DNA of 64,000 nucleotides from Eubacteriaceae bacterium CHKCI004 (GTDB lineage Bacteria > Bacillota > Clostridia > Lachnospirales > Lachnospiraceae): positions 1 through 64,000 of the forward strand of contig FCNR01000045.1 in NCBI GenBank assembly GCA_900016875.1, in the 5' to 3' direction. The translations under genes were made by a program, and so were the position numbers. Positions 22,329-39,722 of this stretch are shown in pieces. Each line of letters starts with the position of its first letter. Within the stretch, counting starts at the first letter, position 1. Below the pieces are notes generated by a model, which made no database searches, had not been told where the DNA came from, and was given only the letters and a program-made list of their open reading frames with translations.

Positions 22329-22348
22329 AGATGCGAAAGGAGAAGGCG

Positions 22349-23197
22349 ATGAAGTTTACGAAAATGCACGGAATCGGCAACGATTACGTTTACATTAATT
22401 GTTTTGAAGAGGAAGTAAAGAATCCGGAAGCGCTGGCGAAGTTTGTCAGCAACAGGAATTTTGGCGTGGGTTCCGATGGACTTATCCTTATCCGCCCGTC
22501 CGACAAAGCGGATTTCCGGATGGAAATATATAATTCCGACGGGTCTCAGGCGGAAATGTGCGGAAACGGGATCCGCTGTGTGGGGAAATATGTCTATGAC
22601 CATGGCCTGACAGATCAGACGGAGATTACGGTGGATACGCTGGGAGGAATCAAGCGTCTCAAACTTACAGTGGAAGATGGGAAGGTTTCTCTGGTACGCG
22701 TCAACATGGGAGAGCCGGTCTTTGATCCGGAAAAGATTCCGGTGCGCTATAAAGAAAATCCCGTGGTAAATGTGCCGATCGAAGTCAACGGCAGAGAGTA
22801 TCATATTACCTGCGTGTCCATGGGAAACCCGCATGCAGTGGTTTTTCTGAATAACAGTGTGAAAGATCTGGATATCCGCATGATCGGTCCGTGTTTTGAG
22901 AATCATACCCGTTTTCCAAAACGAATCAATACGGAGTTTGTGGAGGTCATTGACAGAAAAAATGTGAATATGCGCGTGTGGGAGAGAGGCTCCGAGGAGA
23001 CTCTTGCCTGCGGAACCGGCGCCTGTGCAGTGACGGTGGCCTGCGTTCTCAACGACAAAACAGATAATCAGATCACTGTACATTTGCTGGGCGGCGATCT
23101 GCAGATTGAATGGGACAGGGAGTCCAATCAGGTATATATGACCGGACCTGCCACACAGGTGTTTGACGGCGAACTTTACGAGTATCCGGAAGAATAG
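22349..23197 (+). CDS. dapF: Diaminopimelate epimerase
   Basis: DapF converts LL- to meso-diaminopimelate for lysine and peptidoglycan. The 282-residue protein has both catalytic cysteines in the expected motifs: MCGNGIRCVG near residue 72 and ACGTGACAVT near residue 219. The opening MKFTKMHGIGNDY is the family signature. ATG 22331 lies in frame, but AAAGGAGAAGGCG precedes 22349. It follows the ANTAR gene by about 20 bases and is 87 bases before dapL, its substrate-producing partner. Confidence 0.96.
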   Translation: MKFTKMHGIGNDYVYINCFEEEVKNPEALAKFVSNRNFGVGSDGLILIRPSDKADFRMEIYNSDGSQAEMCGNGIRCVGKYVYDHGLTDQTEITVDTLGGIKRLKLTVEDGKVSLVRVNMGEPVFDPEKIPVRYKENPVVNVPIEVNGREYHITCVSMGNPHAVVFLNNSVKDLDIRMIGPCFENHTRFPKRINTEFVEVIDRKNVNMRVWERGSEETLACGTGACAVTVACVLNDKTDNQITVHLLGGDLQIEWDRESNQVYMTGPATQVFDGELYEYPEE

Positions 23198-23284
23198 AAG
23201 GAATGCCGGGAGTTTGCCGGCACACGGGCAGACACCCGGATAGATATAAACAGCATCAGGCAATCAGCCGGAGAGGAGACAAAA

Positions 23285-24499
23285 ATGTTTAAAATCAATG
23301 ATAATTATTTAAAATTACCGGGCAGCTATCTTTTTTCCAATATCGCAAAGAAAGTGGAGGCATACAGCCAGGCGCATCCGGACAAAGAAATTATCCGTCT
23401 GGGTATCGGAGACGTGACGCAGCCGCTGGCGCCGAAGATTATCGAAACCCTCCATGAAGCTGTGGATGAGATGGCGCATGAGGAGACTTTCCATGGATAC
23501 GCACCGGATCTGGGATATGCGTTTTTGAGAGATACCATCGCTCAGAGTGATTATAAAGACAGGGGCTGCGATATCAGCGCCGATGAGATTTTTGTCAGCG
23601 ACGGCGCAAAATGTGACTCTGGAAATATTCAGGAGATTTTCAGTGTGGACAACAAGATCGCGGTCTGCGATCCGGTCTACCCGGTTTATGTGGATTCCAA
23701 TGTTATGGCGGGCAGAACAGGAACCTATGATCCTTCCACAGAGACATGGAGCGATGTGATCTATATGCCTTGCACTGCGGAAAATCATTTCCTTCCGGAA
23801 TTTCCGAAGGAGAATCCTGACATTATTTACCTGTGCATCCCAAATAACCCGACAGGAACGACCATCACCAAAGCACAGCTGCAGGACTGGGTGGATTACG
23901 CCAACAGAATCGGCGCGGTCATCATTTATGACGCCGCTTATGAAGCGTACATCAGCGAGGATGATGTTCCGCACAGCATTTACGAGTGCGAGGGTGCGAG
24001 AACCTGCGCCATTGAGCTTCGCAGCTTCTCCAAGAATGCCGGCTTTACCGGAACCCGTCTGGGCTTTACTGTGGTTCCGAAAGATTTGAAAGCCGGAGAT
24101 GTATCTCTTCACGCGCTTTGGGCAAGACGGCATGGAACTAAATATAACGGCGCTCCGTATATTATTCAGAAAGCAGGCTGGGCATGCTACACAGAGGAAG
24201 GCAGAGCACAGCTGAAAGAACAGGTTGCCTACTATATGAAAAATGCAAAGATCATCAAAGAAGGTCTGGCAGATGCCGGATTCACAGTATTCGGCGGCGT
24301 GAACGCACCTTATATCTGGCTGAAAACGCCGGACAAAATGACTTCCTGGGAATTCTTTGACTACCTGCTTGACAAAGCAAATGTAGTGGGAACTCCAGGT
24401 TCGGGATTCGGACCGAGCGGAGAAGGATATTTCCGTCTTACTGCTTTCGGTTCCCATGAAAATACCCTCCGTGCCATGGAAAGAATTAAAAATCTGTAA
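23285..24499 (+). CDS. dapL: LL-diaminopimelate aminotransferase
   Basis: DapL makes LL-diaminopimelate directly from tetrahydrodipicolinate and glutamate, bypassing the succinylase and acetylase steps. The 404-residue fold-type I PLP enzyme shows IRLGIGDVTQPL, the YAPDLGYAFLR segment, IPNNPTGT and the PLP lysine at about residue 250 in SFSKNAGFTGTRLG. The pairing with dapF is expected because DapL yields the LL isomer that DapF epimerises. A strong terminator follows. Confidence 0.96.
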   Translation: MFKINDNYLKLPGSYLFSNIAKKVEAYSQAHPDKEIIRLGIGDVTQPLAPKIIETLHEAVDEMAHEETFHGYAPDLGYAFLRDTIAQSDYKDRGCDISADEIFVSDGAKCDSGNIQEIFSVDNKIAVCDPVYPVYVDSNVMAGRTGTYDPSTETWSDVIYMPCTAENHFLPEFPKENPDIIYLCIPNNPTGTTITKAQLQDWVDYANRIGAVIIYDAAYEAYISEDDVPHSIYECEGARTCAIELRSFSKNAGFTGTRLGFTVVPKDLKAGDVSLHALWARRHGTKYNGAPYIIQKAGWACYTEEGRAQLKEQVAYYMKNAKIIKEGLADAGFTVFGGVNAPYIWLKTPDKMTSWEFFDYLLDKANVVGTPGSGFGPSGEGYFRLTAFGSHENTLRAMERIKNL

Positions 24500-24740: not shown

Positions 24741-26606
24741 ATGTTTGGGAACAAAAACAATGAAAAAACCTCAGGTGAAGATAAATTAAATACTCTGGCA
24801 GGTAAGGACAGCGGGAAAAAACCGTCTGCTTCTCTGGAAAAGACAGAAGGGAAAAAAGAGAAGTTTGCGAAGCTTTTTAGCCGGAAAGATAAGAAGGAAG
24901 AAAAGGTGTCCCTCTATGAGCCGGAGATGGAATTTGTCACGGAAGAAGAATTGAAGAAAGAGGAAGCGAAAAAAAAGGACAATATGCAGCCGGGTGAAAA
25001 AAATAGTTTATCCGGAAGCGGCAGTATTTTAAATAACAACAGTGTTTTAAATGATGAAAAGAACGGCGCCCGCTCAAAAATAAAAGGTCTGTTTCGGAAA
25101 AAAGAAACTGGCGCAGGCGCGGCTCTTCCGGGCGGCTTTTCCAGCGCTCAGAAGTCTCTGTTTGATGACGATCCGATTTTGTATGAAGGGGAAGAGAAAA
25201 AGGGACTTGGGAAGCTTTCAAAGAAAAAGCTGGCTGTGATTGCCGGAGCGGCAGTGATTGTGATCGGAGCCGCTTCTTATTTTATTTTGACCAATCTGGG
25301 AGGTTCTGTAGACGGAACGGCTTATGTGGAGTCTGTAAAAGATATCATGGGCTATGGCAGCGGCAGCGGAATGAATAATCGTTATACCGGAGAAGTGGAA
25401 GCGCAGGATTCCTGGGACATCACGCTGCAGTCCGATCTTTCCGTGGCGGAATGTTATGTGGAAGAGGGCGCTCAGGTGAAAAAAGGGGACCGGCTGTTTT
25501 CTTATAATACCGAAGAGATGCAGCTTGCCAAGGAGCGGGCAGAGCTTGAGGTTGAGACCCTTCAGAATGAGAACTCTCAGCTTGAGAGAGATATTAGCAG
25601 TTACAGGAGCGATCTGAATTCTGCCAGCACCAGGGAGAGGATTGAACTTCAGACAGAGATTCTCACCGCGCAGACAACGATCAAGAGAAATGAATACAGT
25701 ATCAGTTCTGCTAATAAAGAGATCAAAGATCTGGAAAAGAACATCAATGACGCCACCGTGACCAGCAAGATGGATGGCGTGGTACAGAAGATCAATGAAG
25801 AAGTGGGAGTGAGCTCCAGTTCCTCCAGCTCTGATGACGAGGAGGACAGTTACGATTATTCAGACAGCGGAGAAGAGTCCACGTACATGACTATTGTGGC
25901 CGTAGGTGACTACCGCGTGAAGGGAAGCGTATCAGAGACAAATGTGTGGTCTCTGACGGAAGGAGATTCGGTGATTATCCGTTCCAGAGTGGACAATAAC
26001 ACAACATGGACGGGAACCATCAGTTCTGTCAATACAGATGAAACAGAGGATTCAGAGGAGGATGCTTCTGAAGATATGATGTATATGGATGATTCTTCTT
26101 CCGGAGAGTCAGCGTCTACTTATAATTTCTATGTGGAACTGGACAGTGATGACGGACTGATGATGGGACAGCATGTTTTTATTGAACTGGATTTTGGACA
26201 GGATGAAGAAAAAGAGGGAATCTGGCTGCCATCGGCTTATATCTATATGGACGAGGACAAATATTATGTCTGGGCTGCCAATGGACGTGATCGCCTGGAA
26301 CTTCGTGAAGTAACGGTCGGGGAATATAATCAGGATCTCGATGAATATCAGATTCTTGACGGGCTGGAAATGAGCGATCTTATCGCCAGCGATACCGGAA
26401 GTCTTCAGGAAAATATGCGGACGACGACAGATATTTCCGAGGTGGACAGTACGGATGAATATTACGAAGAAGAGACGTCTGACGACATGCTGTATGATGA
26501 ATCTGCCGGCGACGAGTATCTGTATGATGAATCTGCCGATGACGAGTTATATTATGATGATGGGTCTTTGAGTGAGGATGTGGGAGTCGTTGATGAAGGC
26601 TTTTAA
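24741..26606 (+). CDS. HlyD/MacA-type adaptor protein with long cytoplasmic tail (ABC export)
   Basis: The 621-residue protein begins with a long, charged, low-complexity cytoplasmic region (about 1-165, rich in K, E, D), then one membrane segment (about 168-190, LAVIAGAAVIVIGAASYFI), a barrel-sandwich half (ITLQSDLSVAECYVEEGAQVKKGDRLFSY), a helical hairpin (about 258-340) and the second half ATVTSKMDGVVQKINEEVGV. An Asp/Ser-rich loop interrupts the beta domain near residue 355, and the C-terminus is a Tyr/Asp/Glu tail with near repeats of LYDESA. In Gram-positives such adaptors pair with MacB-like permeases to export peptides or lipids or to sense envelope stress. It is the first gene of a four-gene operon. 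Confidence 0.8.
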   Translation: MFGNKNNEKTSGEDKLNTLAGKDSGKKPSASLEKTEGKKEKFAKLFSRKDKKEEKVSLYEPEMEFVTEEELKKEEAKKKDNMQPGEKNSLSGSGSILNNNSVLNDEKNGARSKIKGLFRKKETGAGAALPGGFSSAQKSLFDDDPILYEGEEKKGLGKLSKKKLAVIAGAAVIVIGAASYFILTNLGGSVDGTAYVESVKDIMGYGSGSGMNNRYTGEVEAQDSWDITLQSDLSVAECYVEEGAQVKKGDRLFSYNTEEMQLAKERAELEVETLQNENSQLERDISSYRSDLNSASTRERIELQTEILTAQTTIKRNEYSISSANKEIKDLEKNINDATVTSKMDGVVQKINEEVGVSSSSSSSDDEEDSYDYSDSGEESTYMTIVAVGDYRVKGSVSETNVWSLTEGDSVIIRSRVDNNTTWTGTISSVNTDETEDSEEDASEDMMYMDDSSSGESASTYNFYVELDSDDGLMMGQHVFIELDFGQDEEKEGIWLPSAYIYMDEDKYYVWAANGRDRLELREVTVGEYNQDLDEYQILDGLEMSDLIASDTGSLQENMRTTTDISEVDSTDEYYEEETSDDMLYDESAGDEYLYDESADDELYYDDGSLSEDVGVVDEGF

Positions 26607-26633
26607 TCCGGCGCAACATAAGTGGAGGAGAAC

Positions 26634-27326
26634 ATGCTTTTAGAGCTTAAGCATATTTACAAAAATTACAGACAGGATAAAATTGTGGTGCCTGTTTTAA
26701 AGGATATTAATATTTCCATTGACGAGGGAGAGTATGTGGCGATCATGGGACCGTCCGGTTCGGGGAAGACAACGCTGATGAATATCATCGGCTGTCTGGA
26801 CCGCCCCACGGAGGGAGAGTATTTTCTGGAAAATGAATCGATTGTCAACTATACTGAGAACCAGCTTTCGGATCTTCGCCTGAAGACTCTGGGCTTTGTC
26901 TTTCAGAGCTTTAACCTTCTGCCCAAGCAGACAGCCCTTGATAATGTGGCTCTGCCTTTGAGTTATGCGGGGGTGCCGGTGAAGAAACGGCGGCAGATTG
27001 CTTTTCAGACGCTGCAGCGTGTGGGACTGGAAGATCGTGTGAATTTCAAACCGTCTCAGCTTTCCGGCGGTCAGCAGCAGAGAGTGGCCATTGCACGGGC
27101 GCTGGTCAATAATCCGAAGATCATTCTGGCCGATGAACCGACAGGAGCCTTGGACAGTAAGTCCGGCACACAGGTAATGAAGCTCTTTGAGAGACTTAAC
27201 GAGGAGGGAGTAACGGTCATAATGATTACTCACGACGCAAACATTGCCGGCCATGCAAAGAAAGTTCTTCGGATTCTGGATGGAGAGATAGCTGACGATT
27301 CACAGGAAGGAGGCCAGATGCTTTGA
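26634..27326 (+). CDS. MacB/LolD-type ABC transporter ATP-binding protein
   Basis: The 230-residue ATPase has Walker A GPSGSGKT (about 39-46), Q-loop FVFQSFNLLP, signature LSGGQQQR, Walker B IILADEPTGALD and H-loop MITHD. The LolD-type sequences around the signature fit the MacB mechanotransmission class rather than importers. GTG 26622 is in frame, but GGAGGAG precedes ATG 26634. The stop overlaps the next start by four bases. Confidence 0.93.
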   Translation: MLLELKHIYKNYRQDKIVVPVLKDINISIDEGEYVAIMGPSGSGKTTLMNIIGCLDRPTEGEYFLENESIVNYTENQLSDLRLKTLGFVFQSFNLLPKQTALDNVALPLSYAGVPVKKRRQIAFQTLQRVGLEDRVNFKPSQLSGGQQQRVAIARALVNNPKIILADEPTGALDSKSGTQVMKLFERLNEEGVTVIMITHDANIAGHAKKVLRILDGEIADDSQEGGQML

Positions 27327-30300
27327 AGAACAAGAAGAAGTTAATCATTATCAGTGTCATAGTCATTTTGGTTCTTGCGGCCATTGTCGCGGGTGTTGTG
27401 TATTTTGTGAAGAGCAGGAGCGGCTCTGTGGTGGATGTTTATTCCATGGAACTCTTAAACAGTTCGGGATGGGCCGGAGGCGATTCTACGCTGAGCGGAA
27501 CTATTACTTCTGATTATGTGCAGGAAGTATATGCAGATGAAGAGCAGACCGTGGAAGATGTTTACGTGCAGCAGGGAGATTACGTGGAAAAAGGCGATAA
27601 TCTCATGAAATATGATGTAGAAGAGCAGGAGCTGGATCTGCAGCTGCAGGAGCTTGAGATTCAGTCCTCTCAGCTGGAACTGGAAGATCTGGAAAATGAG
27701 CTGCAGAGAATGAAGAATGCCCGTGCTTCCGGAACCATCGACGGCAGCGGCAGCGATGTGATGAATGCTTCTCTGAATCTTTCTTCACTTCGGGGAGATA
27801 TTCTTGCCACACTGATGAGCAATAACACTGGAGCAGGGACGTCAGAAGAAGATGGAAGCGGTTCCTCTGAAACAGGAACTGCCGGTTCCGGAACAGATTC
27901 CAAACAGTCAGACTCCGGCAATACTGCTTCGGACAGTGTGGAAGAAGATTCCACTGATTCCGCCGGTGATAGTTCCGCAGCGGAAGGTGATACAGCTGGT
28001 AATTCTCAGGACAAAGAAGGGAAAACGGATGCTTCTTCCTCAGACAGCAAGAGCACATCTGCTTCTGACAACAAAGAAGGTTCTTCCGCGGATACTCAGG
28101 AAAATGATACTTCCGATTCTTCCTCATCCGATAAAAACAAGACTCGCTCCAAATCAAAAAAAGCAAAAACAGGCGAGGAGAATACCGAAGATACGACAGA
28201 CGACAGCGATCTGCTTGGTAAAGTGGAGGATCTGACGGATGCAGCTTCCGGCGATGGAACGGAGGAGAATCCGTATGTGTTTAACGTAAATACGAATGAT
28301 GTGACAATTAAAGGATCTCTGCTCAATCAACTGGTGGGTGAAGAAGAAAAAGATGTCTATGCTTTTTTCTTCCAGTATGAGACAGAGGCTGACTATAATA
28401 ATGATGCGGGTAAAAAACCGGAAGACAGGAATAATTATATAAATCAGATTATAATTACACCTAAAAAATATGCAGCTGCGTGGAGTGAAGAAGACTATAC
28501 ATTCGCTGCAGTGCAGGCTGCGGTAAGAGATCGAAAGTTAAAAGACACGATTATAGCTGTCAGTGACAGAGAGACAGGACAGGGAACTGATGGTGCTCCG
28601 TATGTTTATTTGTTGAAGGGAACTGGAGAAGATAAGATGATTGCGGGATCTGTCATCTTTGATTTGCTGGAAGGAAATTATACGGCGGTATTTAAGGTTT
28701 ACGAGTCAGAATCTGCATATGCGGAAAACAGTGAGAATACAAGTGCAAGCTACGTCTTAAATCCTGTTTATGATACCGATGGCATAGACCAGAACGCAGT
28801 TTATTCAATAGATGATCTGAAAACAATATTTAGTGACAAAAAGTTAAAGAGCAAGATTGAAACGATTAGTGATAATACTTACGGAGACGGAAGCGCCAAC
28901 GATCCGTATATTTATCTTCTTAGTCAGGGTGGAACAGTGCGTGGTTCTGTTGTTCAACTTTTGGTGAAAGGAGAATATTATGCAGAATTTCAAGAGTTTG
29001 AAAGTGAGGAATCTTATAAAGATAGTCCATATTCTTCATCACAAAGTGTGAGTATTACGCCTGGAATGCCAATAACGGGTATTGAATCAACTCGTGAATA
29101 CACCCTGCAGCAGCTTCAGGCAGCTCTTAATGCGGCTGAAGCTGCTTCCAGGATTCCTAATGTTCTGAAATCAGAGATCACGGACAAGAAAAATGACGCG
29201 TACAAAGGGTCAGGAACCATGAGCGATCCATATGTGTACAGACTTATTACTGATGGAAGAATCCGTGGTTCTGTAATCAATGATATCATGAAGAATAATG
29301 AGTTTGCCGTGTTCTATGAATATGATTCTGAGGAAGACGGAAGAAGAGAAAATGTTGCCAATTCCATTGAGATAAGACCTAATACGATATTAAAGGAGAT
29401 AATCACTTCGTTTGGATGGTATACGCTGGCAGATTTGAATGATGCCATTGTGACGGCGGATCAGATTCAAATCCGTCCGAACCGGAAAACGGTAAAGACC
29501 GGAAAGTCTTATAATTTTACAGCAAAGCTCAGCGGAAAGAACAGTGAAGTTCTTCCGGTGACCTGGGAACTGAAACGGAATCAATCCGACGCCACCACAT
29601 TGATTAATGGAACGCTGACGGTAGGAGAAGACGAGACGGCAGATACGCTGCGTATCGTTGCTTCTGCCGGAGGAAAAAGAGATGTTCTGACATTGAAGGT
29701 AAAACAAAGTGACACTTCAGGCAGTGACGGAAGTGGATCTGGCGGCAGTTCAGATGGCAGTTCCGGTTATGACAGTAGTTTTGACAGCGGTTCAGACAGC
29801 GGAGGCAGTATCGATTACAGCGGATATACGGCAGAAGAACTGGCAAGCGCCATTGCCGATAAGGAAGAAGAAATCGCAGATGCAAAACAGAATCTCAATC
29901 AGGCTAAAATTGATTATCAGGAGGCCAAAAAGGAAGTGGACGCCGCCACAGTAAAAGCGACAGTCAGCGGCGAGGTGACTTTGGCTTACACAAAAGAAGC
30001 CATGCCGGACGACGGCTCGCCGGCAATTATCGTGCGGGGTGAGGATGGCATGTATGTCAATGTGGATGTCAGTGAAATGTCTCTGGATACAGTAAAAGTC
30101 GGAGGAACCATTTATTGTACTTCCATGGAGACATACGAACAGTATGAAGCGGAGATTATTGAAATCTCCCAGTATCCGACCACAGGTTCCGATTCTGAAT
30201 ACAGTTATGACGGTCTGTCCAATCCTAACAGTTCCTATTATCCTGTTGTCGCTTATATTGCCCAGGCAGATGGTCTGGTGACAGGAGAGTCTGTGGAAGT

Positions 30301-30586
30301 ATCCTACAGCTCGCAGTCTATGGGAACTGTTTCGGAAGAAGCGATTTATCTTCAGAAAGCATACATCCGTACAGATGACGAAGGAAAAAGCTATGTTTAC
30401 AAAGAAGGGGAAGACGGTCGTCTGAAAAAGCAATATGTCAAGACCGGAGAAACCTTATACGGACAGTATGTAGAGGTTCTTTCCGGCGTGACGATGGATG
30501 ACAATATTGCCTTCCCATACGGCAGCAGCGTGAAAGAAGGAGCAAAAGTGGAACTTTCTGAAAATACAGATAATATTATATACTAG
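27323..30586 (+). CDS. Giant HlyD-like adaptor with four-copy repeat insertion and Ig-like domain
   Basis: This 1,087-residue protein starts at TTG 27323 behind GGAAGGAGG. Order: a membrane segment (about 5-29), the first lipoyl-like half (about 68-100, VEDVYVQQGDYVEKGDNLM), a helix (100-140), a Ser/Asp/Glu/Lys low-complexity stretch (about 165-300), four related repeats of about 105 residues (about 305-720), an Ig-like Big_2-type domain (about 735-805), a Ser/Gly linker, a second helix (about 845-885) and the second lipoyl half with a beta domain to the end. Each repeat has a G-x-G-[ST]-xxx-P-Y-[VI] opening, a xGS[VL] turn and an aromatic/acidic ending such as VYES. I do not recognise this repeat. 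It sits where ordinary adaptors have only a helical hairpin. The repeat region looks more AT-rich than its flanks. Confidence 0.8.
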   Translation: MKNKKKLIIISVIVILVLAAIVAGVVYFVKSRSGSVVDVYSMELLNSSGWAGGDSTLSGTITSDYVQEVYADEEQTVEDVYVQQGDYVEKGDNLMKYDVEEQELDLQLQELEIQSSQLELEDLENELQRMKNARASGTIDGSGSDVMNASLNLSSLRGDILATLMSNNTGAGTSEEDGSGSSETGTAGSGTDSKQSDSGNTASDSVEEDSTDSAGDSSAAEGDTAGNSQDKEGKTDASSSDSKSTSASDNKEGSSADTQENDTSDSSSSDKNKTRSKSKKAKTGEENTEDTTDDSDLLGKVEDLTDAASGDGTEENPYVFNVNTNDVTIKGSLLNQLVGEEEKDVYAFFFQYETEADYNNDAGKKPEDRNNYINQIIITPKKYAAAWSEEDYTFAAVQAAVRDRKLKDTIIAVSDRETGQGTDGAPYVYLLKGTGEDKMIAGSVIFDLLEGNYTAVFKVYESESAYAENSENTSASYVLNPVYDTDGIDQNAVYSIDDLKTIFSDKKLKSKIETISDNTYGDGSANDPYIYLLSQGGTVRGSVVQLLVKGEYYAEFQEFESEESYKDSPYSSSQSVSITPGMPITGIESTREYTLQQLQAALNAAEAASRIPNVLKSEITDKKNDAYKGSGTMSDPYVYRLITDGRIRGSVINDIMKNNEFAVFYEYDSEEDGRRENVANSIEIRPNTILKEIITSFGWYTLADLNDAIVTADQIQIRPNRKTVKTGKSYNFTAKLSGKNSEVLPVTWELKRNQSDATTLINGTLTVGEDETADTLRIVASAGGKRDVLTLKVKQSDTSGSDGSGSGGSSDGSSGYDSSFDSGSDSGGSIDYSGYTAEELASAIADKEEEIADAKQNLNQAKIDYQEAKKEVDAATVKATVSGEVTLAYTKEAMPDDGSPAIIVRGEDGMYVNVDVSEMSLDTVKVGGTIYCTSMETYEQYEAEIIEISQYPTTGSDSEYSYDGLSNPNSSYYPVVAYIAQADGLVTGESVEVSYSSQSMGTVSEEAIYLQKAYIRTDDEGKSYVYKEGEDGRLKKQYVKTGETLYGQYVEVLSGVTMDDNIAFPYGSSVKEGAKVELSENTDNIIY

Positions 30587-30615: not shown

Positions 30616-31875
30616 ATGCTGGAAAATATACGATTATCTTTTCAGGGAATCTGGGCGCATAAGCTTCGTTCACTTCTTACGATGCTGGGAATTATCATTG
30701 GTATCGCAGCCATCATTGCCATTGTTTCCACTATCAGGGGAACCAATGAGCAGATTCGTAAGAATCTCATCGGTTCGGGGACCAACACGGTAAATGTCCG
30801 GATGGTTGAGAGCGGAGATTATGATTATGATATGGGATACAGCAGTATCCCTTCCGGAATACCTGTTCTGGATTCAGATGCGAGAGATGAACTGAACGAC
30901 ATGGATCATGTGGAAGATGCTTCTCTGTATATGATCCGTACGGCGGTGGATTACATTTATTATAATGACACGGCGCTGCAGGGCGGAGAGTTGATAGGAG
31001 CGGATTCCCATTATCTGAATACATGCGGATATATCATGACGAAAGGAAGAGCCTTTACAGAGAGTGACTATACCAATTACCGTAAAGTGGCGGTGGTTGA
31101 TTCCACGGCGGCGGAGAGCCTTTTCGGAGATGAGAATCCGGTGGGAAAGACCATTGACATACAGGGCGAGCCGTTCATCGTGATCGGCGTTATCGAGGAG
31201 TCCTCAGAATTTGAGCCGGTGATCGAGACCGTGGAGGATTATTATCAATATGTGTATGACGATGCCGGCAGCAGCGGAACTGTTGTTGTTCCGGATACTG
31301 TATGGAGCATTGTAGGGCAGTATGACGAGCCTCAGAATGTACGTCTGCTGGCAGATTCCACCGATGCCATGAGCAGTGTGGGCAGGGAGGCTGCCCAGTA
31401 TTTAAACGAGTCGGTGGATAACGAAGACGTCAAGTACAGTGCAGAAGATATCATGCAGCAGGCGCAGGAAAATCAGCAGCTCAGTGAATCCACAAATCAG
31501 CAGCTGATCTGGATTGCCAGCATTTCTCTGCTGGTGGGAGGTATCGGCGTAATGAATATTATGCTGGTGTCTGTGACAGAGCGTACCAGAGAAATTGGTC
31601 TGAAAAAAGCCATTGGTGCAAGGAAAAATAAAATATTGGCGCAGTTTTTGACAGAAGCGGCGGTGCTGACCAGTCTTGGAGGAATTATCGGAACGGTCAC
31701 CGGAATCATATTTGCGGAAGCGATTAATCAGATATCCGGAGTGCCGGTGTCCATCAGCGTGCCGGCATCCATCATTGCCATTGCTTTTTCCATGCTCATT
31801 GGTATTGTATTTGGATTTGTGCCGGCAGTGAAAGCGGCGAATATGGATCCGATCGTAGCGCTGCGTCATGAATAA
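30616..31875 (+). CDS. MacB/FtsX-type ABC transporter permease
   Basis: The 419-residue permease has the MacB layout: one N-terminal membrane helix (about 17-42, LLTMLGIIIGIAAIIAIVST), a large extracytoplasmic MacB-type core domain (about 45-285, with the GTNTVNV start), and three C-terminal helices around the FtsX motif (GGIGVMNIMLVSVTERTREIGL, GARKNKIL). It completes the adaptor-ATPase-adaptor-permease operon. Having two different adaptors for one permease is unusual. The substrate is unknown; macrolide, peptide or lipoprotein-like cargo are all possible for this family. Confidence 0.9.
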   Translation: MLENIRLSFQGIWAHKLRSLLTMLGIIIGIAAIIAIVSTIRGTNEQIRKNLIGSGTNTVNVRMVESGDYDYDMGYSSIPSGIPVLDSDARDELNDMDHVEDASLYMIRTAVDYIYYNDTALQGGELIGADSHYLNTCGYIMTKGRAFTESDYTNYRKVAVVDSTAAESLFGDENPVGKTIDIQGEPFIVIGVIEESSEFEPVIETVEDYYQYVYDDAGSSGTVVVPDTVWSIVGQYDEPQNVRLLADSTDAMSSVGREAAQYLNESVDNEDVKYSAEDIMQQAQENQQLSESTNQQLIWIASISLLVGGIGVMNIMLVSVTERTREIGLKKAIGARKNKILAQFLTEAAVLTSLGGIIGTVTGIIFAEAINQISGVPVSISVPASIIAIAFSMLIGIVFGFVPAVKAANMDPIVALRHE

Positions 31876-31913: not shown

Positions 31914-33266
31914 ATGGGAAAATATTTTGGAACCGATGGCTTTCGCGGTGAGGCAAATGTAACGTTGACAGTGGAGCACGCCTATAAGGTAGGACGTTTC
32001 CTGGGATGGTATTTTGGAAAAGACAAGGAAGAAAAATGCCGGGTGGTTATTGGCAAAGATACCAGAAGATCCAGCTATATGTTTGAGTACTCTCTGGTAG
32101 CCGGCCTTACGGCATCAGGAGCAGACGTGTACCTGCTTCATGTAACGACGACGCCCAGCGTGTCTTATGTGGCGAGAACAGAAGATTTTGACTGCGGCAT
32201 CATGATCTCCGCCAGCCATAATCCTTATTACGATAACGGAATCAAACTTATCAATTCTAAAGGAGAGAAAATGGATGAGGAGACGATTCTTAAAGTAGAG
32301 GATTACATTGACGGCAAACTGGAGATTCCATTTGCTGTAAAGGACGATATTGGCTGTACGGTTGATTATGCAGCAGGAAGAAATCGTTACATCGGATATC
32401 TGATCTCCCTTGCCACTCGTTCCTACAAAAATATGCGGGTCGGTCTGGATTGTGCCAACGGCAGCTCCTGGATGATCGCCAAGAGTGTGTTTGACGCGCT
32501 GGGCGCAAAGACCTATGTGATCAACGCGGAGCCAAACGGCCTGAACATCAACCGCAATGCCGGTTCCACACACATCGAAGTTTTGCAGGATTTTGTAAGA
32601 GAGAACAATCTGGATGTGGGATTTGCCTTTGACGGCGACGCGGACCGCTGTATCGCTGTGGACGACACGGGGGCAGTGATCGACGGCGACCTGATCCTGT
32701 ATGTGTGCGGTACTTACATGAAGGAAAGGGGAACCTTACACAATAACACCATCGTCACTACGGTAATGTCCAACTTTGGTCTGTACAAGGCGCTGGATGC
32801 AGCCAATATCCAATATGAGAAAACGGCCGTAGGCGATAAATATGTCTACGAGAACATGGTAAAGAACGGCCACCGCATCGGCGGCGAGCAGTCCGGCCAC
32901 ATCATTTTCAGCAAATATGCCAACACCGGCGACGGTATCCTCACCGCCATCAAGATCATGGAAGTGATACTGGAGAAGAAGATGCCGCTGTCCAAGCTGG
33001 CAAGCCCGGTGAAGATTTACCCGCAGGTTCTTAAAAACGTGCGCGTAACGAGCAAACCGGAAGCGCAGAATGATCCTGATGTGCAGGCAGCCGTACAGTC
33101 AGTGGCAGATTCCTTAGGCGACACCGGACGAATTCTCGTCCGTGAGAGCGGCACAGAACCATTGATCCGTGTCATGGTGGAAGCGGAGACCATGGAAGAA
33201 TGTGAGAGATATGTGGACGCAGTCATTGACGTGATCCGGGAAAAAGGACACTGCGTGGAAGCGTAA
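31914..33266 (+). CDS. glmM: Phosphoglucosamine mutase
   Basis: GlmM interconverts glucosamine-6-phosphate and glucosamine-1-phosphate for UDP-GlcNAc and peptidoglycan. The 450-residue protein opens with KYFGTDGFRG, has the phosphoserine loop MISASHNPYYDNG (Ser101), the metal loop DGDADRC, the sugar-binding GGEQSGH and the phosphate-binding RESGTEPLIRVM. TAGGAGAGAATC precedes the ATG. It lies 38 bases after the ABC permease, so some read-through is likely, and is closed by a strong terminator. Confidence 0.96.
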   Translation: MGKYFGTDGFRGEANVTLTVEHAYKVGRFLGWYFGKDKEEKCRVVIGKDTRRSSYMFEYSLVAGLTASGADVYLLHVTTTPSVSYVARTEDFDCGIMISASHNPYYDNGIKLINSKGEKMDEETILKVEDYIDGKLEIPFAVKDDIGCTVDYAAGRNRYIGYLISLATRSYKNMRVGLDCANGSSWMIAKSVFDALGAKTYVINAEPNGLNINRNAGSTHIEVLQDFVRENNLDVGFAFDGDADRCIAVDDTGAVIDGDLILYVCGTYMKERGTLHNNTIVTTVMSNFGLYKALDAANIQYEKTAVGDKYVYENMVKNGHRIGGEQSGHIIFSKYANTGDGILTAIKIMEVILEKKMPLSKLASPVKIYPQVLKNVRVTSKPEAQNDPDVQAAVQSVADSLGDTGRILVRESGTEPLIRVMVEAETMEECERYVDAVIDVIREKGHCVEA

Positions 33267-33320
33267 TGCTGACCCGTTCGGGCGGACAATTGCTCCATAT
33301 TTGTATATATTGACATGTTG

Positions 33321-33370
33321 CAGGCGTAACACCTTTTTATGTATGTGAGAAGGTGTTGCGCCTGTTGTGT
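33321..33370 (+). terminator. Rho-independent terminator after glmM
   Basis: CAGGCGTAACACCTT (33321-33335) pairs over 15 positions with AAGGTGTTGCGCCTG (33350-33364), followed by a TTGTGTTTT stretch. Confidence 0.85.
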
Positions 33371-33452: not shown

Positions 33453-33524
33453 GACACTTCTATTTTCCCAATGTTACAATTTTTATGTCACGACATGACA
33501 ACTCAGAGCAAAGGAGGGGAAGCG

Positions 33525-36500
33525 ATGAAAAAGAAGTTACTTGTGTGGATTCTGCTGTGCGCGATGCTGGTGACGGACATCCCGGCACGGGCAGCGGTGG
33601 ACGGCGGCGTGTCGGCAGCGGCGGATTTGTCGGAATCGGCGATGGCGGGTGAGGAGAGAGCAGGAAAAGTCTTTTATATCAGCACGGCGAAGGAACTAAT
33701 AGATATACTGCAGGCATATAATTTTACGGGAACAAACTCATATTATATGCCGGAATATGCGTATTTTGAGCTGGTGAATGATATCGATCTTTCCGGTTAC
33801 GTCTGGGAACCGGTCAATCTCAATGGGATGTTTAACGGCAACGGACATACGATACGGAATATTACGATTAAAAAGTACGGAGGGATCGGCACTTCCACAG
33901 AAAAATATGCCGGTTTTTTTGCCATGGGTTTAAATTCATGGAAAAAGGATTATGTTACGAATCTTCATCTGGAAAATGTGGAGATAGAGGTAGGAGTTGA
34001 TGAGTCTTCTGAGATTACCCGATTGGGGGTAGCCCCGGTGATTGCAGATACAACAGTTGCTATTAATAATTGCAGCGTATCCGGAAGTATACTGGTTATT
34101 TCAGAGTCCGATACCGTCGATATAGCTGTAAAAGGTTTTAAAAATGTCAGTGGATGTCAGGGAGAGATGGACATAGAAGTAAAAGGGAAGATGGAGACTA
34201 TTGAAGCAACTGCGATCAGTGAAAGCGCGAACACCCAATGGGAAGGGGATATTACTGTAAATACACAGGGAGAAAGTTCTGATGTGGAAGCCGCAGGTAT
34301 ACATGCAGGTAACGGATGCACTTATACAGGAAATGTAGACGTACATGCAAAAGATGTAAAAGACGGAACGGTAACTGCCTATGGGATATTTGGTAAAGAA
34401 TGTCATATGAAAGGAAATGTTACACTGGAGTCAGGGAAAGGAAACGCATACCTCTACGGATTGGGCGGAACAGGCTGTTTTATGGAGGGCAATATCCAGG
34501 CGGAAGGCGGCGGAGAAGTAGAAGCTGTCGCCATGTCCAATTATGTAGCGAATTATAATCCGGCGATTGTCGGTGATTTAAAGGAATCCAGCTTTGCCGG
34601 AAATGTGACTGTGGAAGCAAAAAAAATGGTGAGAATTACAGGTATGGATGCCGGAGAAAGTTGTCAGTTTAACGGGAATATCCATGCGGTCAGCAGCGAA
34701 GATACAGTTGATGCGACAGGCATAGAAGATACTTCCGGAAGCTTTTTTTCCGGAGAAATTTTTGCCAGGGGAAATTCTGATGATCCAGGCGGGGTTTGTG
34801 TGTATGGGGTGGCTGGTGAGAATAATTATTTCAAAGGAGACATTCATGCGGAAAATACCTATATAGAAGAGCAATATACGAGTGGAGGAGAAGCCGTCGC
34901 AGTAGGCTCTTCCGGGACAAACTGTTACGTTGAAGGGAATCTGACTGCCATAGCGGAAGAGCCTTCTGCATTCGGATTAACGGGTGAGGATAGTTATTTT
35001 TATGGGAATATCTCCGTCAATGCGTCAGAAGACGGTTTTGGCGCACTTATCTCTTCGGACTATTCCGGGAATATTGCGGAAGGAAAAGTAAATATTCACA
35101 GCTCTGGCAGCGCGGACGGAGCGCTTATTGACGGCTATGGTGCCAGCAATAATTATGCGGAAGGAGATTTATGCGTAAGCGGTGCGGAGCGGTCTTGGGC
35201 AGAGGGAATCACGGAAGATGTCGGAACCGGCAATCATGCCAGAGGAACGGTCACTGCGGAAGTGACAGGAGCAGGCGACGAGTTCAGATACATAAATGCC
35301 AGCGGTTCTTCAGGCGGAAGTACATTTGAGGGGACTGTGACCGGTATCTGTAATGGGCTTTCCGGGACAGTGAGCCAGACCGGGGGAACACTGTACTTTA
35401 TGAGAGGTGAGGGAGGTACGCTTTTTTTGTCGACAGATGATAGTGAAGGATTTTCCGCTGCCGGTTTTATTACCGTTGGTTCCGGCGGAGAGGTCACTCC
35501 TCCGGAAGAGGAATGGAGTCCTTCGGAAGGAGAAGAAGAAAAACAGGAAAAAGTGTATTCTCTCCGGTTCATAGACATACTGACAGATCAGCCGGTCACA
35601 GACGCTGTGGTCGGTATAGATGGGGAATATTATACGACTGACAATAATGGAATGATTACAGTAAAGGGAGATTTATTTATTCAGAATCTGGAAGTACAGG
35701 ACACTGACGTTCCCATTCATACGCAAAGTCGTTTTTTTGCAGCGGCAGGAAGGACAAATACAATCTATGTCAATGGTCTGAATTTTAATTTGAACAATAT
35801 AGTGATGGGAAAGCTTGGAGAAACAACCATAAATGGACCGGAAGCAAACGGGTTTTCTCTGTTTGAACTTCCAATCTCCTTTGATCTGAGTATCCTGGAC
35901 CAGATGCAGATCGCGTATGACGCGGAGAAAAAAACATATCAGGTCATTGTCACGGGTTCAGGAGAGTATAGCAGAGAGACAGACGGAATTGCCAATGCCA
36001 GAGAACCGGCATGGAAGAAAGCATATGAGGAATTCAAATACCAGTTTACGAAGGGAGTTCAGGACTTCCGGAGTCAGTCTTTTAAAGGGGTGAACCGGGA
36101 TTTTGGAACAAAGAACGCAAATGTCAGAGCCGGGGGATATCTGGAGTTTGCTGTGACAGATGAGGGACTTAGGATGACAGACGGAGAGATGCTTGTCAGA
36201 GTAAAGGGGGATTTTTCCAGCAGTTATCCGATTCCGCCCGCTCCATATATTTATCTGAAGTTTGGGGTGGAAACAAGTCTCCAGACAAGAGCTGATTTTG
36301 AATTCAAAAATAATGATATCAGGGTTCCAGAGGTTATTATGACAGCGGATATGGGATTTCAGTTGATGCCGTCTCTGGGTATTGGCGCGGGACTCCATAA
36401 GATACTGTCTGCTGAAGTGGGAATAGAAGGACCTTTAGATGTGAGTCTGAGGCTTCCATTTATATCCATGGAAGAAAATGTGAAAGTGACGATGAGCGCA

Positions 36501-39500
36501 AAGGCATATTTGCTGATCACCGCGCTTGCCTTCAATATGAAGTTCAGTGAAACATTTTTAGAGCATGAGCTTTATCCTGGAGAGAAAGAAGAAGAAAATG
36601 GAAAAGTAAGTACATTTGCCGCCGTACCGGATACCGGAGAACTGAGCCTGATTGACAGAAGCTATCTGAACGGAGCGGCTGCCCGCTCTGTAGATGAAGG
36701 GAATCAGGACACGATCAGGAACAGGGCGTATCCGTATGGCACGGTACAAAGTGTTTCTCTGCCTGATGGCAGGACATTGGTTGTCTGGCTGGATGATGAT
36801 ACGCAGAGAAATCTGATGGATAAGACTTCACTATATTATAGTATTATCCAAAATGGGGAGTGGAGTGTTCCGGCGCAGATTGAAGCTGACGGCACGGCAG
36901 ATTTCAGCTTTGATCTCTGTGAGACTGACAGTGGAGCCGCCATCGTATGGCAGGATACCCGGGAGTCTCTTCCGGAAAATACCGATGCGGATACGCTGGC
37001 AGAATCCATTGACTTATCTTTTGCGGAATTTAATTCTGAGACGAATACTTTCGGAACTGTCATCTCCCTGACAGGAGAAAACGGGGAGGAATCGGCAGGG
37101 ACAAAAGGAACGGGAGACAATACGATATACGAATACAGCCCGAAGCTGGCTGCGAATGAACATACAGTTCATGTGATATGGAATCAGAATGCTGCCAATC
37201 ATGTGGTACCGGGCGAAGAGATCACGGCGGAGTCGATCTGTTATATGAAGGTGCAGAAAAGCAGCGGAGAGTGGAAGCCGGGCACGGCGGAAATCGTAGA
37301 GGATAATCTTCCTCTGGTATATGAAGCGGTAGTAGGAGATACAGGAGTTGTCGCATACCTGACAGATGACGGGGAAGGAGAAGAAAGCGCAAAGGTTCTT
37401 TCCATAAAAGAGATGGATGGGCAGGAGAGAACACAGCAGTATAGCAACAATACTGATCTGTCAGACTTGCAATACAAAGAAGGAAAACTTTATTTCTCTG
37501 AGGAAGAAAATGTAAAAACTCTGTCGCTCTGGAATGAATATGCATCTATTCTTGCGTCAAACCGGAATGCAGGAGATGAGCAGACCAGAGTAGTATACCG
37601 GAATGGACAGCCGGAAGCCGTTATCACAGAAGTGCAGGATGGACTTACGTCGAATCTCTATATTTCTTACAGGAATAACGGGGTATTTACGAACCCGGTT
37701 CCGATCACGGATTTTGATGAAAAGATTCGCTCCTGGGATGTGTCTTTGAATGAAGATGGTTCAGTGGATGTGAGCGCTCTTCTGATACATATAGAGGTTG
37801 GTGAGACGAAAAATGAAATGACAGAGACAGCCAGACTGGTTCACACGACGGCAAAACCAATGGAAGATATTGTATTGTCGGAGATATTTACCGAAGAAGA
37901 TCATGTCGGAAGAGGAAGTATGGCAACCTTTTTATTAAATGTAGAAAATAATACAAAGGAAGTACTGGAAAGTCTGGATGTATCTGTGAAAGACTCAACT
38001 GGCGGAACATTGTACGAAGGAACATATACCACTTTCATAGAAGGCGGAGACACAGGCACTCTTTCGGTGGACGTCCCAATCCCAGCTGATTTTACGATGC
38101 AGGAGCTGACCTTCACTGTGACAGGAGACATGGAGGAAAAAGACACGGATAATAACAGCGGGATATTCCTGGCGGGGGCAGCGAACCTCGTATTGGAGAT
38201 GGATGGCAGCCATATCCACAGCGATGGTTATCTGGAAGCCGTCATTACCAACAATGGAAGCGCGGATGCTTCGGGAGTGCAATTGAAAGTAACCGGAGAG
38301 GATGAAACCGTTATCTTTAAAGAATCGGCAGGAAATGTACCGGCAGGAGAAGAAAAACGGGTAATGATCCCGGTGGAAGAAAGCAAACGCTCATTCAATA
38401 AGGATTCAGACAGCTATGGAATTACGGCGGAAATATCCTGTGACGAAGAGGAGAGTACAGAGATTGATAATGAGGCGGCTTTCCGCATCCGTCCGCCGCA
38501 GATCACACAGATTGTAATCGCTGAGAGTATGCTGAATATGGCTTTGGGAGAAACCTACAAGCCGACCGTGCAGGTTTATCCTTCCGATACGTTGAACAAA
38601 GAGTACGTTGTCCGGTCCGGCGATGAAAATGTGGTTTCAGTAGATGCAGATGGAACAATCACCGCAAAGGCGGAAGGAACAGCGGATATTATCTTTATGG
38701 CGGTCAATTCCAGTGCGGCAGCCAGAGTGAGCGTCACGGTAGGCGGAAGTGATGCGGAAAACCTTCATAAAATATCACTGGATGCCGGAGGCGGCACAGT
38801 TTCTCCGCGACGGCTGGAAGTACAGGAAGGACAGACGGCAGTGCTACCGTGTCCGATGCGGGAAGGTTACTACTTCGCCGGTTGGTATAACGCTCCAGAA
38901 GGTGGCAACGAGATTACCAGCGAGACAGCCATCACACAGGATATGACCCTGTACGCCCGGTGGACAGATACCAGATCTCCAAATCCGGAGCTGCCGGAGA
39001 TTGATAACCCAGACCCGGACGATCCGAATCCAGACGACCCGGACAACCCGGATCCCGATGTTCCGAACCCGAACCCGGGCGAAACAGATCCCGACGACCC
39101 AGACCCGGATACCCCGTCGCCAGAGCCAACACCAGGCGGCGATCCGGGAAGTGGAACCACATCACAGCCGGGTACGCCAACGCAGCCGGGAGGAAGCGGA
39201 ACAACACCGCAGCCAGGCGGCAGCGGAGCGGGAACCGGTCAGACCGGCAATAAGACACCGCAGGCAGCGGCACAGTATCGTGTCGGCGATATAGTGACGG
39301 CCAGCGGACTTCGTTACCGGGTAACCGACGCCCGGTCCGCACAGGGGCAGGTACAGATGATCGGTGCGGCGGGAGCCGCGAAGAAGACGGTGAATATCCC
39401 GGCAGAGATTCTTTCTCCTTCCACCGGACAGCGTTTTAAAGTAACAGCTATCGGAAATAATGCGTTTAAAAATCAAAAGAAGCTGCGTAAGCTGACGATA

Positions 39501-39722
39501 GGAAAGAACGTAAGAGTCATAGGAAAGAAGGCGTTCTTCAACTGTAAGAAGCTGAAAAATATTACCATGAAGACGAAAACTCTGACGAAAAAGACGGTTG
39601 GAGCGAAAGCGTTCCGTGGCATCTATGCAAGGGCGTCTGTCAAAGTACCAAAGAAGAAGCGGACGCTATACAGAAAGATTCTGCGGGCTAGGGGCGTCGG
39701 TGTTCAGGTTAGAATCTGTTAG
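33525..39722 (+). CDS. Very large secreted repeat-rich surface protein
   Basis: From ATG 33525 (ribosome site GGAGGGG) the protein has 2,065 residues. A signal peptide ends near ARAA (residue 23-24). Order: GLUG-like start (FNGNGHTIRNITI, about 95-107), about a dozen degenerate repeats of 25-35 residues with an AxGI...G...F.GNI pattern (about 205-607), a short adaptive-Ig-like piece (FIDILTDQPVTDAVVGI), a beta-rich middle (about 760-1020), propeller-like strands (LPDGRTLVVWLDDDT), CARDB-like modules (about 1440-1660), a Big_2-type domain (about 1665-1740), a Listeria-Bacteroides type repeat (YYFAGWYNAPEGG), a Pro/Asp-rich linker and a C-terminal leucine-rich-like segment (KLRKLTIGKNVRVIGKKAF). 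No LPXTG motif is seen; the basic C-terminus may hold it on the wall. It is likely an adhesin or matrix protein. Confidence 0.8.
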   Translation: MKKKLLVWILLCAMLVTDIPARAAVDGGVSAAADLSESAMAGEERAGKVFYISTAKELIDILQAYNFTGTNSYYMPEYAYFELVNDIDLSGYVWEPVNLNGMFNGNGHTIRNITIKKYGGIGTSTEKYAGFFAMGLNSWKKDYVTNLHLENVEIEVGVDESSEITRLGVAPVIADTTVAINNCSVSGSILVISESDTVDIAVKGFKNVSGCQGEMDIEVKGKMETIEATAISESANTQWEGDITVNTQGESSDVEAAGIHAGNGCTYTGNVDVHAKDVKDGTVTAYGIFGKECHMKGNVTLESGKGNAYLYGLGGTGCFMEGNIQAEGGGEVEAVAMSNYVANYNPAIVGDLKESSFAGNVTVEAKKMVRITGMDAGESCQFNGNIHAVSSEDTVDATGIEDTSGSFFSGEIFARGNSDDPGGVCVYGVAGENNYFKGDIHAENTYIEEQYTSGGEAVAVGSSGTNCYVEGNLTAIAEEPSAFGLTGEDSYFYGNISVNASEDGFGALISSDYSGNIAEGKVNIHSSGSADGALIDGYGASNNYAEGDLCVSGAERSWAEGITEDVGTGNHARGTVTAEVTGAGDEFRYINASGSSGGSTFEGTVTGICNGLSGTVSQTGGTLYFMRGEGGTLFLSTDDSEGFSAAGFITVGSGGEVTPPEEEWSPSEGEEEKQEKVYSLRFIDILTDQPVTDAVVGIDGEYYTTDNNGMITVKGDLFIQNLEVQDTDVPIHTQSRFFAAAGRTNTIYVNGLNFNLNNIVMGKLGETTINGPEANGFSLFELPISFDLSILDQMQIAYDAEKKTYQVIVTGSGEYSRETDGIANAREPAWKKAYEEFKYQFTKGVQDFRSQSFKGVNRDFGTKNANVRAGGYLEFAVTDEGLRMTDGEMLVRVKGDFSSSYPIPPAPYIYLKFGVETSLQTRADFEFKNNDIRVPEVIMTADMGFQLMPSLGIGAGLHKILSAEVGIEGPLDVSLRLPFISMEENVKVTMSAKAYLLITALAFNMKFSETFLEHELYPGEKEEENGKVSTFAAVPDTGELSLIDRSYLNGAAARSVDEGNQDTIRNRAYPYGTVQSVSLPDGRTLVVWLDDDTQRNLMDKTSLYYSIIQNGEWSVPAQIEADGTADFSFDLCETDSGAAIVWQDTRESLPENTDADTLAESIDLSFAEFNSETNTFGTVISLTGENGEESAGTKGTGDNTIYEYSPKLAANEHTVHVIWNQNAANHVVPGEEITAESICYMKVQKSSGEWKPGTAEIVEDNLPLVYEAVVGDTGVVAYLTDDGEGEESAKVLSIKEMDGQERTQQYSNNTDLSDLQYKEGKLYFSEEENVKTLSLWNEYASILASNRNAGDEQTRVVYRNGQPEAVITEVQDGLTSNLYISYRNNGVFTNPVPITDFDEKIRSWDVSLNEDGSVDVSALLIHIEVGETKNEMTETARLVHTTAKPMEDIVLSEIFTEEDHVGRGSMATFLLNVENNTKEVLESLDVSVKDSTGGTLYEGTYTTFIEGGDTGTLSVDVPIPADFTMQELTFTVTGDMEEKDTDNNSGIFLAGAANLVLEMDGSHIHSDGYLEAVITNNGSADASGVQLKVTGEDETVIFKESAGNVPAGEEKRVMIPVEESKRSFNKDSDSYGITAEISCDEEESTEIDNEAAFRIRPPQITQIVIAESMLNMALGETYKPTVQVYPSDTLNKEYVVRSGDENVVSVDADGTITAKAEGTADIIFMAVNSSAAARVSVTVGGSDAENLHKISLDAGGGTVSPRRLEVQEGQTAVLPCPMREGYYFAGWYNAPEGGNEITSETAITQDMTLYARWTDTRSPNPELPEIDNPDPDDPNPDDPDNPDPDVPNPNPGETDPDDPDPDTPSPEPTPGGDPGSGTTSQPGTPTQPGGSGTTPQPGGSGAGTGQTGNKTPQAAAQYRVGDIVTASGLRYRVTDARSAQGQVQMIGAAGAAKKTVNIPAEILSPSTGQRFKVTAIGNNAFKNQKKLRKLTIGKNVRVIGKKAFFNCKKLKNITMKTKTLTKKTVGAKAFRGIYARASVKVPKKKRTLYRKILRARGVGVQVRIC

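Follow-up and report, generated by a model that had tools for sequence, protein, structure and literature searches.

The second of two adaptors encoded in a MacAB-like exporter operon of Eubacteriaceae bacterium CHKCI004 carries four tandem copies of a domain whose family is absent from Pfam and NCBIfam. The domains are part of a large insertion at what we read as the tip of the adaptor hairpin. The operon lies in a stretch of 64,000 nucleotides (contig FCNR01000045.1), here called the window, to which coordinates refer unless a locus is named. A preliminary description had pointed out the repeat but missed that many Lachnospiraceae share the domain, which is a mark of the second adaptor in their two-adaptor operons. 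The transporter type itself is already known. Searches of the open-licence literature brought up no report of the domain family, of its constant position on the second adaptor or of its recurrent expansion, and none of the titles and abstract starts listed describes the tip domain or a two-adaptor MacAB-like operon of Gram-positive bacteria. With about even confidence we propose that the tandem domains form the outer, wall- or surface-facing hairpin end of adaptor B in a Gram-positive MacAB-like two-adaptor exporter. A conserved domain where TolC would dock, present on one of two adaptors, makes the role of MacA-type adaptors in Gram-positive bacteria testable, a role posed as a question in the accessible part of a review (PMC5985334).

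The operon and the architecture of adaptor B

The operon comprises, in this order and on the plus strand, the genes for adaptor A, an ABC ATPase, adaptor B and a MacB-type permease. Adaptor A (24741..26606; an open reading frame of 621 amino acids) is of the MacA type with a plain hairpin lacking an insert, and it matches RND_mfp (E 7.1e-22, under the NCBIfam cut-off) and MacA of the PDB (4dk0; E 3.1e-11). The ATPase (26622..27326) is of the MacB/LolD type (ABC_tran, E 4e-34), and its best NCBIfam match is MacB (E 4.5e-80, under the cut-off of that family). The stop codon of its gene is overlapped by the TTG start codon of adaptor B (27323..30586; 1087 amino acids according to the ORF listing), with a GGAGG motif a few bases 5' of the TTG. 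Adaptor B also matches RND_mfp (E 3.2e-17, under the cut-off). The permease (30616..31875) contains MacB_PCD and FtsX (Pfam E 4e-32 and E 4.3e-21, respectively), and in the PDB it matches MacB (5lil; E 1.2e-54) and the ABC transporter permease 5xu1 (E 1.7e-51). A permease with an extracytoplasmic core and an FtsX-like C-terminus, together with a separate ATPase of the MacB/LolD type in the same operon, places the system among the MacAB-like ABC exporters of the Gram-positive type.

Adaptor A begins with a charged, Lys/Glu-rich stretch of about 160 residues (24741-25220) located ahead of its membrane helix. A stretch of similar length precedes the adaptor match in the adaptor A proteins of three congeners, Eubacterium sp. 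An11, Candidatus Anaerobutyricum avicola and Ca. A. stercoripullorum (L062, L063 and L064); in other regions the match starts at most about 66 residues from the start, among the matches listed. The operon is flanked (22331-24499 and 31914-33266) by genes that we take to be dapF, dapL and glmM. By homology these neighbours are also present in the same three congeners; no other region searched contains them, the flanks being short in many of these regions. The neighbourhood is lineage-specific, and a general argument from linkage to wall-precursor genes was dropped since the neighbours are confined to these three loci. A terminator-like stem of 20 pairs (33320-33365) is located 3' of the next gene, presumably glmM; the consensus scan returned 17 such sites versus 6.9 in shuffles. 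It is followed by a gene (33471-39722) for a protein of 2083 amino acids with matches to Flg_new, Big_2 and LRR_5, whose N-terminal part contains, by eye, many short recurring stretches.

Adaptor B has the parts of a MacA-type adaptor, namely an N-terminal membrane helix (residues 2-30), a split lipoyl domain, two hairpin helices predicted by AlphaFold2 (residues 93-135, 27599..27727, and residues 837-875, 29831..29947) and a β-barrel. By contrast, a short hairpin turn is lacking, and an insert of about 700 residues separates the helix ending at residue 135 from the one starting at residue 837. Profile matches assign the region 29948..30583 to the second lipoyl half, the β-barrel and the membrane-proximal part. 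HlyD_3 at residues 876-957 (E 0.013) and Biotin_lipoyl_2 were both found under their Pfam gathering scores, and the best RND_mfp stretch covers residues 848-1077. Among solved structures, a profile of C-terminal halves of adaptor B from relatives is closest to Spr0693 (5xu0; E 7.5e-21), followed by MacA (E 2.5e-10 and weaker). The initial assignment of the protein to the HlyD/MacA type, and of an insertion between its two halves, is thus borne out.

The full-length AlphaFold2 model, built from 4 sequences only, is weak (pLDDT 48, pTM 0.29). It displays all four units and the long helices on either side of the insert; confidence is low past residue 875, and the lipoyl and barrel parts are not resolved in the model. 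We read the two predicted helices as the arms of the coiled-coil hairpin of the adaptor, which would place the insert at the hairpin tip. Because of this position, the projection of the insert away from the membrane, as suggested in the preliminary description, appears reasonable.

The insert starts with a spacer rich in Ser, Asp, Glu and Gly (residues 136-299; 27728..28219), identified by sequence and modelled with pLDDT values below 50 over residues 137-294, in which a helix at residues 144-168 is predicted at low confidence. The four units come next. They are followed by a possible Ig-like domain (residues 713-795; 29459..29707) and, as judged by sequence, a linker rich in Gly, Ser and Asp (residues 796-836; 29708..29830). 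The Ig-like label, given in the preliminary description, is plausible inasmuch as the stretch resembles parts of two other large proteins (best E 1.1e-10 and 1.7e-6); it has no Pfam match, however, and is modelled with low confidence.

A repeated domain outside the described families

Four related units of about 95-109 amino acids each span residues 300-712, approximately, of adaptor B. Units 1 (residues 300-408; 28220..28546), 2 (residues 409-510; 28547..28852) and 3 (residues 511-618; 28853..29176) are based on alignment, shuffles and AlphaFold2, and unit 4 (residues 619-712; 29177..29458), the most conserved copy on average, on alignment, shuffles, the AlphaFold2 model of a single unit and the comparison of identities. 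BLOSUM62 local scores of the six unit pairs range from 66 to 132 as compared with shuffle maxima of 49-69, and in no pair was the observed score reached by any of 1000 shuffles. The relatedness of the four modules, first noted by inspection, is therefore well founded. Their four-way alignment has 12 invariant columns. The G-x-G-[ST]-xxx-PY motif is present in each unit, at residues 310, 419, 521 and 629, which is some five to six residues before the numbers originally given. An xGS[VL] turn and an aromatic/acidic strand (YET, YES, FES or YDS) are likewise found in the units, in agreement with the earlier reading, as is the YTxxxL-like element. The latter had been regarded as a linker but is predicted by AlphaFold2 to form a short strand and a helix within the unit. 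For one unit modelled together with 16 aligned units, the predicted fold is β-β-α-β-α-β-β-α, with a mean pLDDT of 76 and block means of 77-88 over residues 11-100. Judged by this model, the unit is a domain.

In accordance with the preliminary description, the units match no described family. No family for the units emerged from Pfam, against which the window protein and its four units were scanned along with seven relatives and a set of 48 diverse unit sequences, or from NCBIfam, for which the window protein and the set of 48 were used; every family that was matched at all hit at most one of the 48. EMP24/GOLD (the best Pfam match, E 9.9e-4), TIGR03985 (the best NCBIfam match, E 3.4e-4) and PTS_IIB each matched a single one of these units, and DUF6877 (E 0.0093) matched one of the four window units with the other three being without match; all of them were treated as chance. 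Two further candidates were set aside: MpAFP_RII (4p99), matched by profile over 23 residues (whole-sequence E 4.3e-5, with none of its stretches passing individually), and the C1q-like 4f3j (E 0.86). Foldseek searches against PDB and BFVD returned nothing at E <= 0.001, and without a PDB match the structure offers no function to transfer to the unit. Little weight attaches to the full-chain Foldseek search, which used the poor model.

Distribution, copy history and composition

A search with the full protein covered 60 relatives plus the source genome, and 30 of these 61 genomes matched. Within the genus of the window, taken to be Anaerobutyricum, matches were obtained for 22 of the 23 other genomes, some via a plain adaptor alone or a fragment at a contig edge. 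The 19 genus loci with the domain (L002-L020) carry one to four copies (four in six loci, three in three, two in four, one in six; three loci are cut or split). One copy is present in most relatives: among 74 open reading frames from the family, 64 contain one, eight contain two and two contain three. Profile A2, made from genus units only, matched 29 of 397 family genomes. Profile A3, which combines 17 genus rows with 31 rows from the full-protein and A2 matches, detected the domain in 73 genomes of the same sample and in 21 of 344 genomes of an order-wide sample (11 in Lachnospiraceae and ten in one sister family). In a phylum-wide sample of 398, the source genome was the sole match.

We examined 74 regions, which cover the 71 family genomes with hits other than G000 and G005 and also six of the ten sister-family genomes. 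The domain is located between the N- and C-terminal adaptor parts in 71 of 74 open reading frames of the family, five of six of the sister family and 16 of 19 of the genus. Of the seven that do not display this arrangement six are cut or split and one is a different protein; those outside the genus are L135 and L191 (cut by the contig end), L173 (split gene) and L174. In L174 (5795-7393), the tip domain occurs in an LRR protein of 533 amino acids encoded near genes of a FecCD-type ABC transporter; by eye, this protein has a signal peptide and a C-terminal membrane helix. The adaptor B gene is interrupted in L009 and in L173 (5905-7685), where the break falls between the tip domain and the C-terminal half, and decay or a sequencing error may account for either case.

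We built a tree from 92 columns of 68 unit sequences; its bootstrap had not settled, and 24 of 65 inner branches are left open. The 46 units of the genus are set apart from the remaining 22 (99/99). Units 2, 3 and 4 of the window protein each group with their counterparts of the same number in three close congeners (91/84, 98/99 and 97/71, respectively), and unit 1 groups with unit 1 of two of the three (99/97). This pattern points to vertical inheritance of the tip domain. The three-copy proteins L145 and L150 and the two-copy proteins L120, L126 and L127 fall outside the genus group, and hence the domain probably expanded more than once. A single tip domain is the commonest state and probably also the ancestral one.

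The repeat region had been described as AT-rich, and this proved correct. Residues 300-712 have a GC content of 0.402 against 0.462 expected for the same amino acids at the codon usage of the neighbours (z -7.2), and a GC3 of 0.351 against 0.512 (z -6.7). GC3 is also low in the spacer (z -2.9), in the C-terminal half (z -2.7) and in the gene at 33471, where four of five pieces are affected (z -2.9 to -4.1). The further suggestion of a separate origin did not hold. Across 16 congeners, GC3 of the domain varies from 0.28 to 0.60 and that of the remaining gene body from 0.30 to 0.68; the two are correlated in these congeners (Pearson r 0.86) and in 71 family members (r 0.87). The domain has the lower value in 13 of the 16 congeners and 45 of the 71 family members, though in only one of five sister-family members. 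We thus consider it very unlikely that the repeat region was gained horizontally in the lineage of the window, be it from an unrelated surface protein or a mobile element. The deviation from the codon usage of the neighbours, the predominance of values below those of the gene body and the tip domain in the LRR protein of L174 would fit such an event. By contrast, domain GC3 that tracks the gene body bears no mark of a recent foreign insert, and the low values are shared by most of the gene at 33471. Moreover, most units cluster with their same-numbered counterparts in congeners, no match to the repeat region was found in plasmid and phage collections, and the insertion point is identical across the family, where single-copy relatives largely refute a gain in this lineage.

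Unequal adaptors and the role of the hairpin tip

Of the 76 regions whose domain-bearing adaptor is complete, 65 show the run of adaptor A, ATPase, adaptor B and permease; seven lack a separate ATPase gene between the adaptors, and four are incomplete at contig ends. One of the seven is L181 (4566-7229), where ATPase and adaptor B read as one frame of 888 amino acids. Each of the 74 plain adaptors has a gap of 8-18 residues between the N- and C-terminal profile matches, as against 120-693 residues in each of the 76 domain-bearing ones, the latter range being partly true by definition. The tip domain was not detected in any of 77 plain adaptors, even at E 1. In many of the Lachnospiraceae sampled, the domain is confined to adaptor B of a two-adaptor operon. 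In the relatives, E, P, S, D and T are abundant in the spacers on either side of it.

A search of 150 family genomes with the C-terminal half of adaptor B yielded 41 genomes at E <= 1e-25, of which 30 matched profile A3 and 11 did not. In all ten readable operons of the latter, the gap amounts to 45-538 residues in the permease-side adaptor (B) and to 8-21 residues in adaptor A, and therefore the asymmetry is independent of the domain. Among these genomes, the domain is present in L202 according to a script, and L195 and L199 have, by eye, divergent multi-copy versions (with marginal matches at E 0.05-0.07 in L195). Short Pro/Glu-rich loops are found in L200 and L203, an Asp/Ser loop in L204 and stretches resembling Ig, by eye, in L201. 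L196 (4731-6782) and L198 (2821-5037) carry a different insert at the hairpin tip that looks alike in both and has no Pfam match in L198; L197 has another sequence at the site, and L205 is cut. The insertion site is modular. Some of these adaptor B proteins have no more than a short loop, or a different insert, and the pump can therefore do without the domain.

Among the window protein and three four-unit congeners, identity is 0.33-0.54 for unit 1, 0.55-0.75 for unit 2, 0.65-0.72 for unit 3 and 0.68-0.91 for unit 4; the rise is one of averages, unit 3 exceeding unit 4 in one pair. The corresponding values are 0.76-0.83 for the N-terminal part, 0.82-0.86 for the C-terminal half and 0.86-0.92 for the permease. 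In 1392 of 1572 pairs of single-copy relatives, conservation of the domain falls below that of the C-terminal half. These data bear on two alternative views of the insert. It might be a passive spacer or tube cap that lengthens or stiffens the hairpin end or closes the mouth, with a copy number that drifts neutrally. Copy number indeed varies within genus and family, and some adaptor B proteins (L200, L203 and L204) have low-complexity loops only. We nevertheless regard a passive role as improbable, given that the motif is conserved across two families, and that orthologous unit groups together with the average conservation gradient suggest that each copy is held in place.

Somewhat more credit, if still limited, may be given to a role of the tip domains as a module for cargo or as a receptor. 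They would bind an exported peptide or protein, or an incoming antimicrobial peptide, outside the membrane and pass it to the pump or gate the pump. Distal units less conserved than the adaptor body would fit a ligand-facing part under changing selection, and other inserts occupy the same site in some relatives. Moreover, the related Spr0693-0694-0695 system of Streptococcus pneumoniae is required for resistance to LL-37, according to the accessible text of PMC5768738. On the other hand, unit 4 is as conserved as the body in some pairs (see the ranges for unit 4 and the C-terminal half given above).

The reading we favour is that of a wall- or surface-facing hairpin end. Operon order suggests that adaptors A and B assemble with each other, and they probably form a single tube on the MacB-type permease. 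The asymmetry between them suggests that adaptor A, with its plain hairpin, builds the plain tube wall and adaptor B supplies the modules. Hairpins of adaptor B would run via flexible acidic/Pro/Ser-rich spacers into one to four tip domains. Since Gram-positive cells have no TolC to dock to, these domains most likely anchor or position the distal tube end at the cell wall or at some other ligand of the surface, or else detect something there. The pump would move a peptide or a small molecule away from the membrane. Extending this proposal beyond the window is more tentative, and we do so with less than even confidence: in Lachnospiraceae and a sister family, each tube would contain two unequal adaptors, and the tip of adaptor B would serve as a modular site that displays the new domain family or whatever replaces it. 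What is displayed there would attach to the wall, to a partner at the surface or to cargo, would have expanded to four copies in a lineage-specific manner, and would be the Gram-positive equivalent of docking to TolC.

The closest or second-closest solved relatives of the adaptor C-terminal half and the permease belong to Spr0693-0694-0695 (5XU0, 5XU1), which likewise functions in a Gram-positive bacterium without an outer membrane. As far as the accessible text of PMC5768738 goes, that operon consists of three genes with one adaptor as compared with two adaptors in the window, and no extra domain in the hairpin turn of Spr0693 is mentioned there, unlike the tip domains of adaptor B. The same text states that the turn, Pro142-Gly163, could not be traced in the structure, and that the modelled Spr0693 assembly has a height comparable to the membrane-wall zone, or inner wall zone. 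From the untraced turn we infer that a loop able to take up domains would be a natural ancestor. MacA-MacB-TolC of Gram-negative bacteria shares the MacB-type ATPase and permease and the MacA-type adaptor with the window operon, which differs by its two adaptor genes and by one to four extra domains at the tip of adaptor B; the tips of the MacA hairpins intermesh with TolC, as stated in the accessible part of PMC5985334. YknWXYZ of Bacillus is also a four-component Gram-positive MacAB-like exporter, and YknX forms a MacA-like hexamer (accessible parts of PMC8277102 and PMC5985334). Purified YknX was reported to bind peptidoglycan, according to what is accessible of the latter review. The fourth component of that system is the four-TM protein YknW, whereas it is a second adaptor in the window operon. 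Two adaptor genes per operon are also found in TriABC of Pseudomonas aeruginosa (PMC8277102, accessible part), which unlike the window operon encodes an RND-type system of a Gram-negative bacterium.
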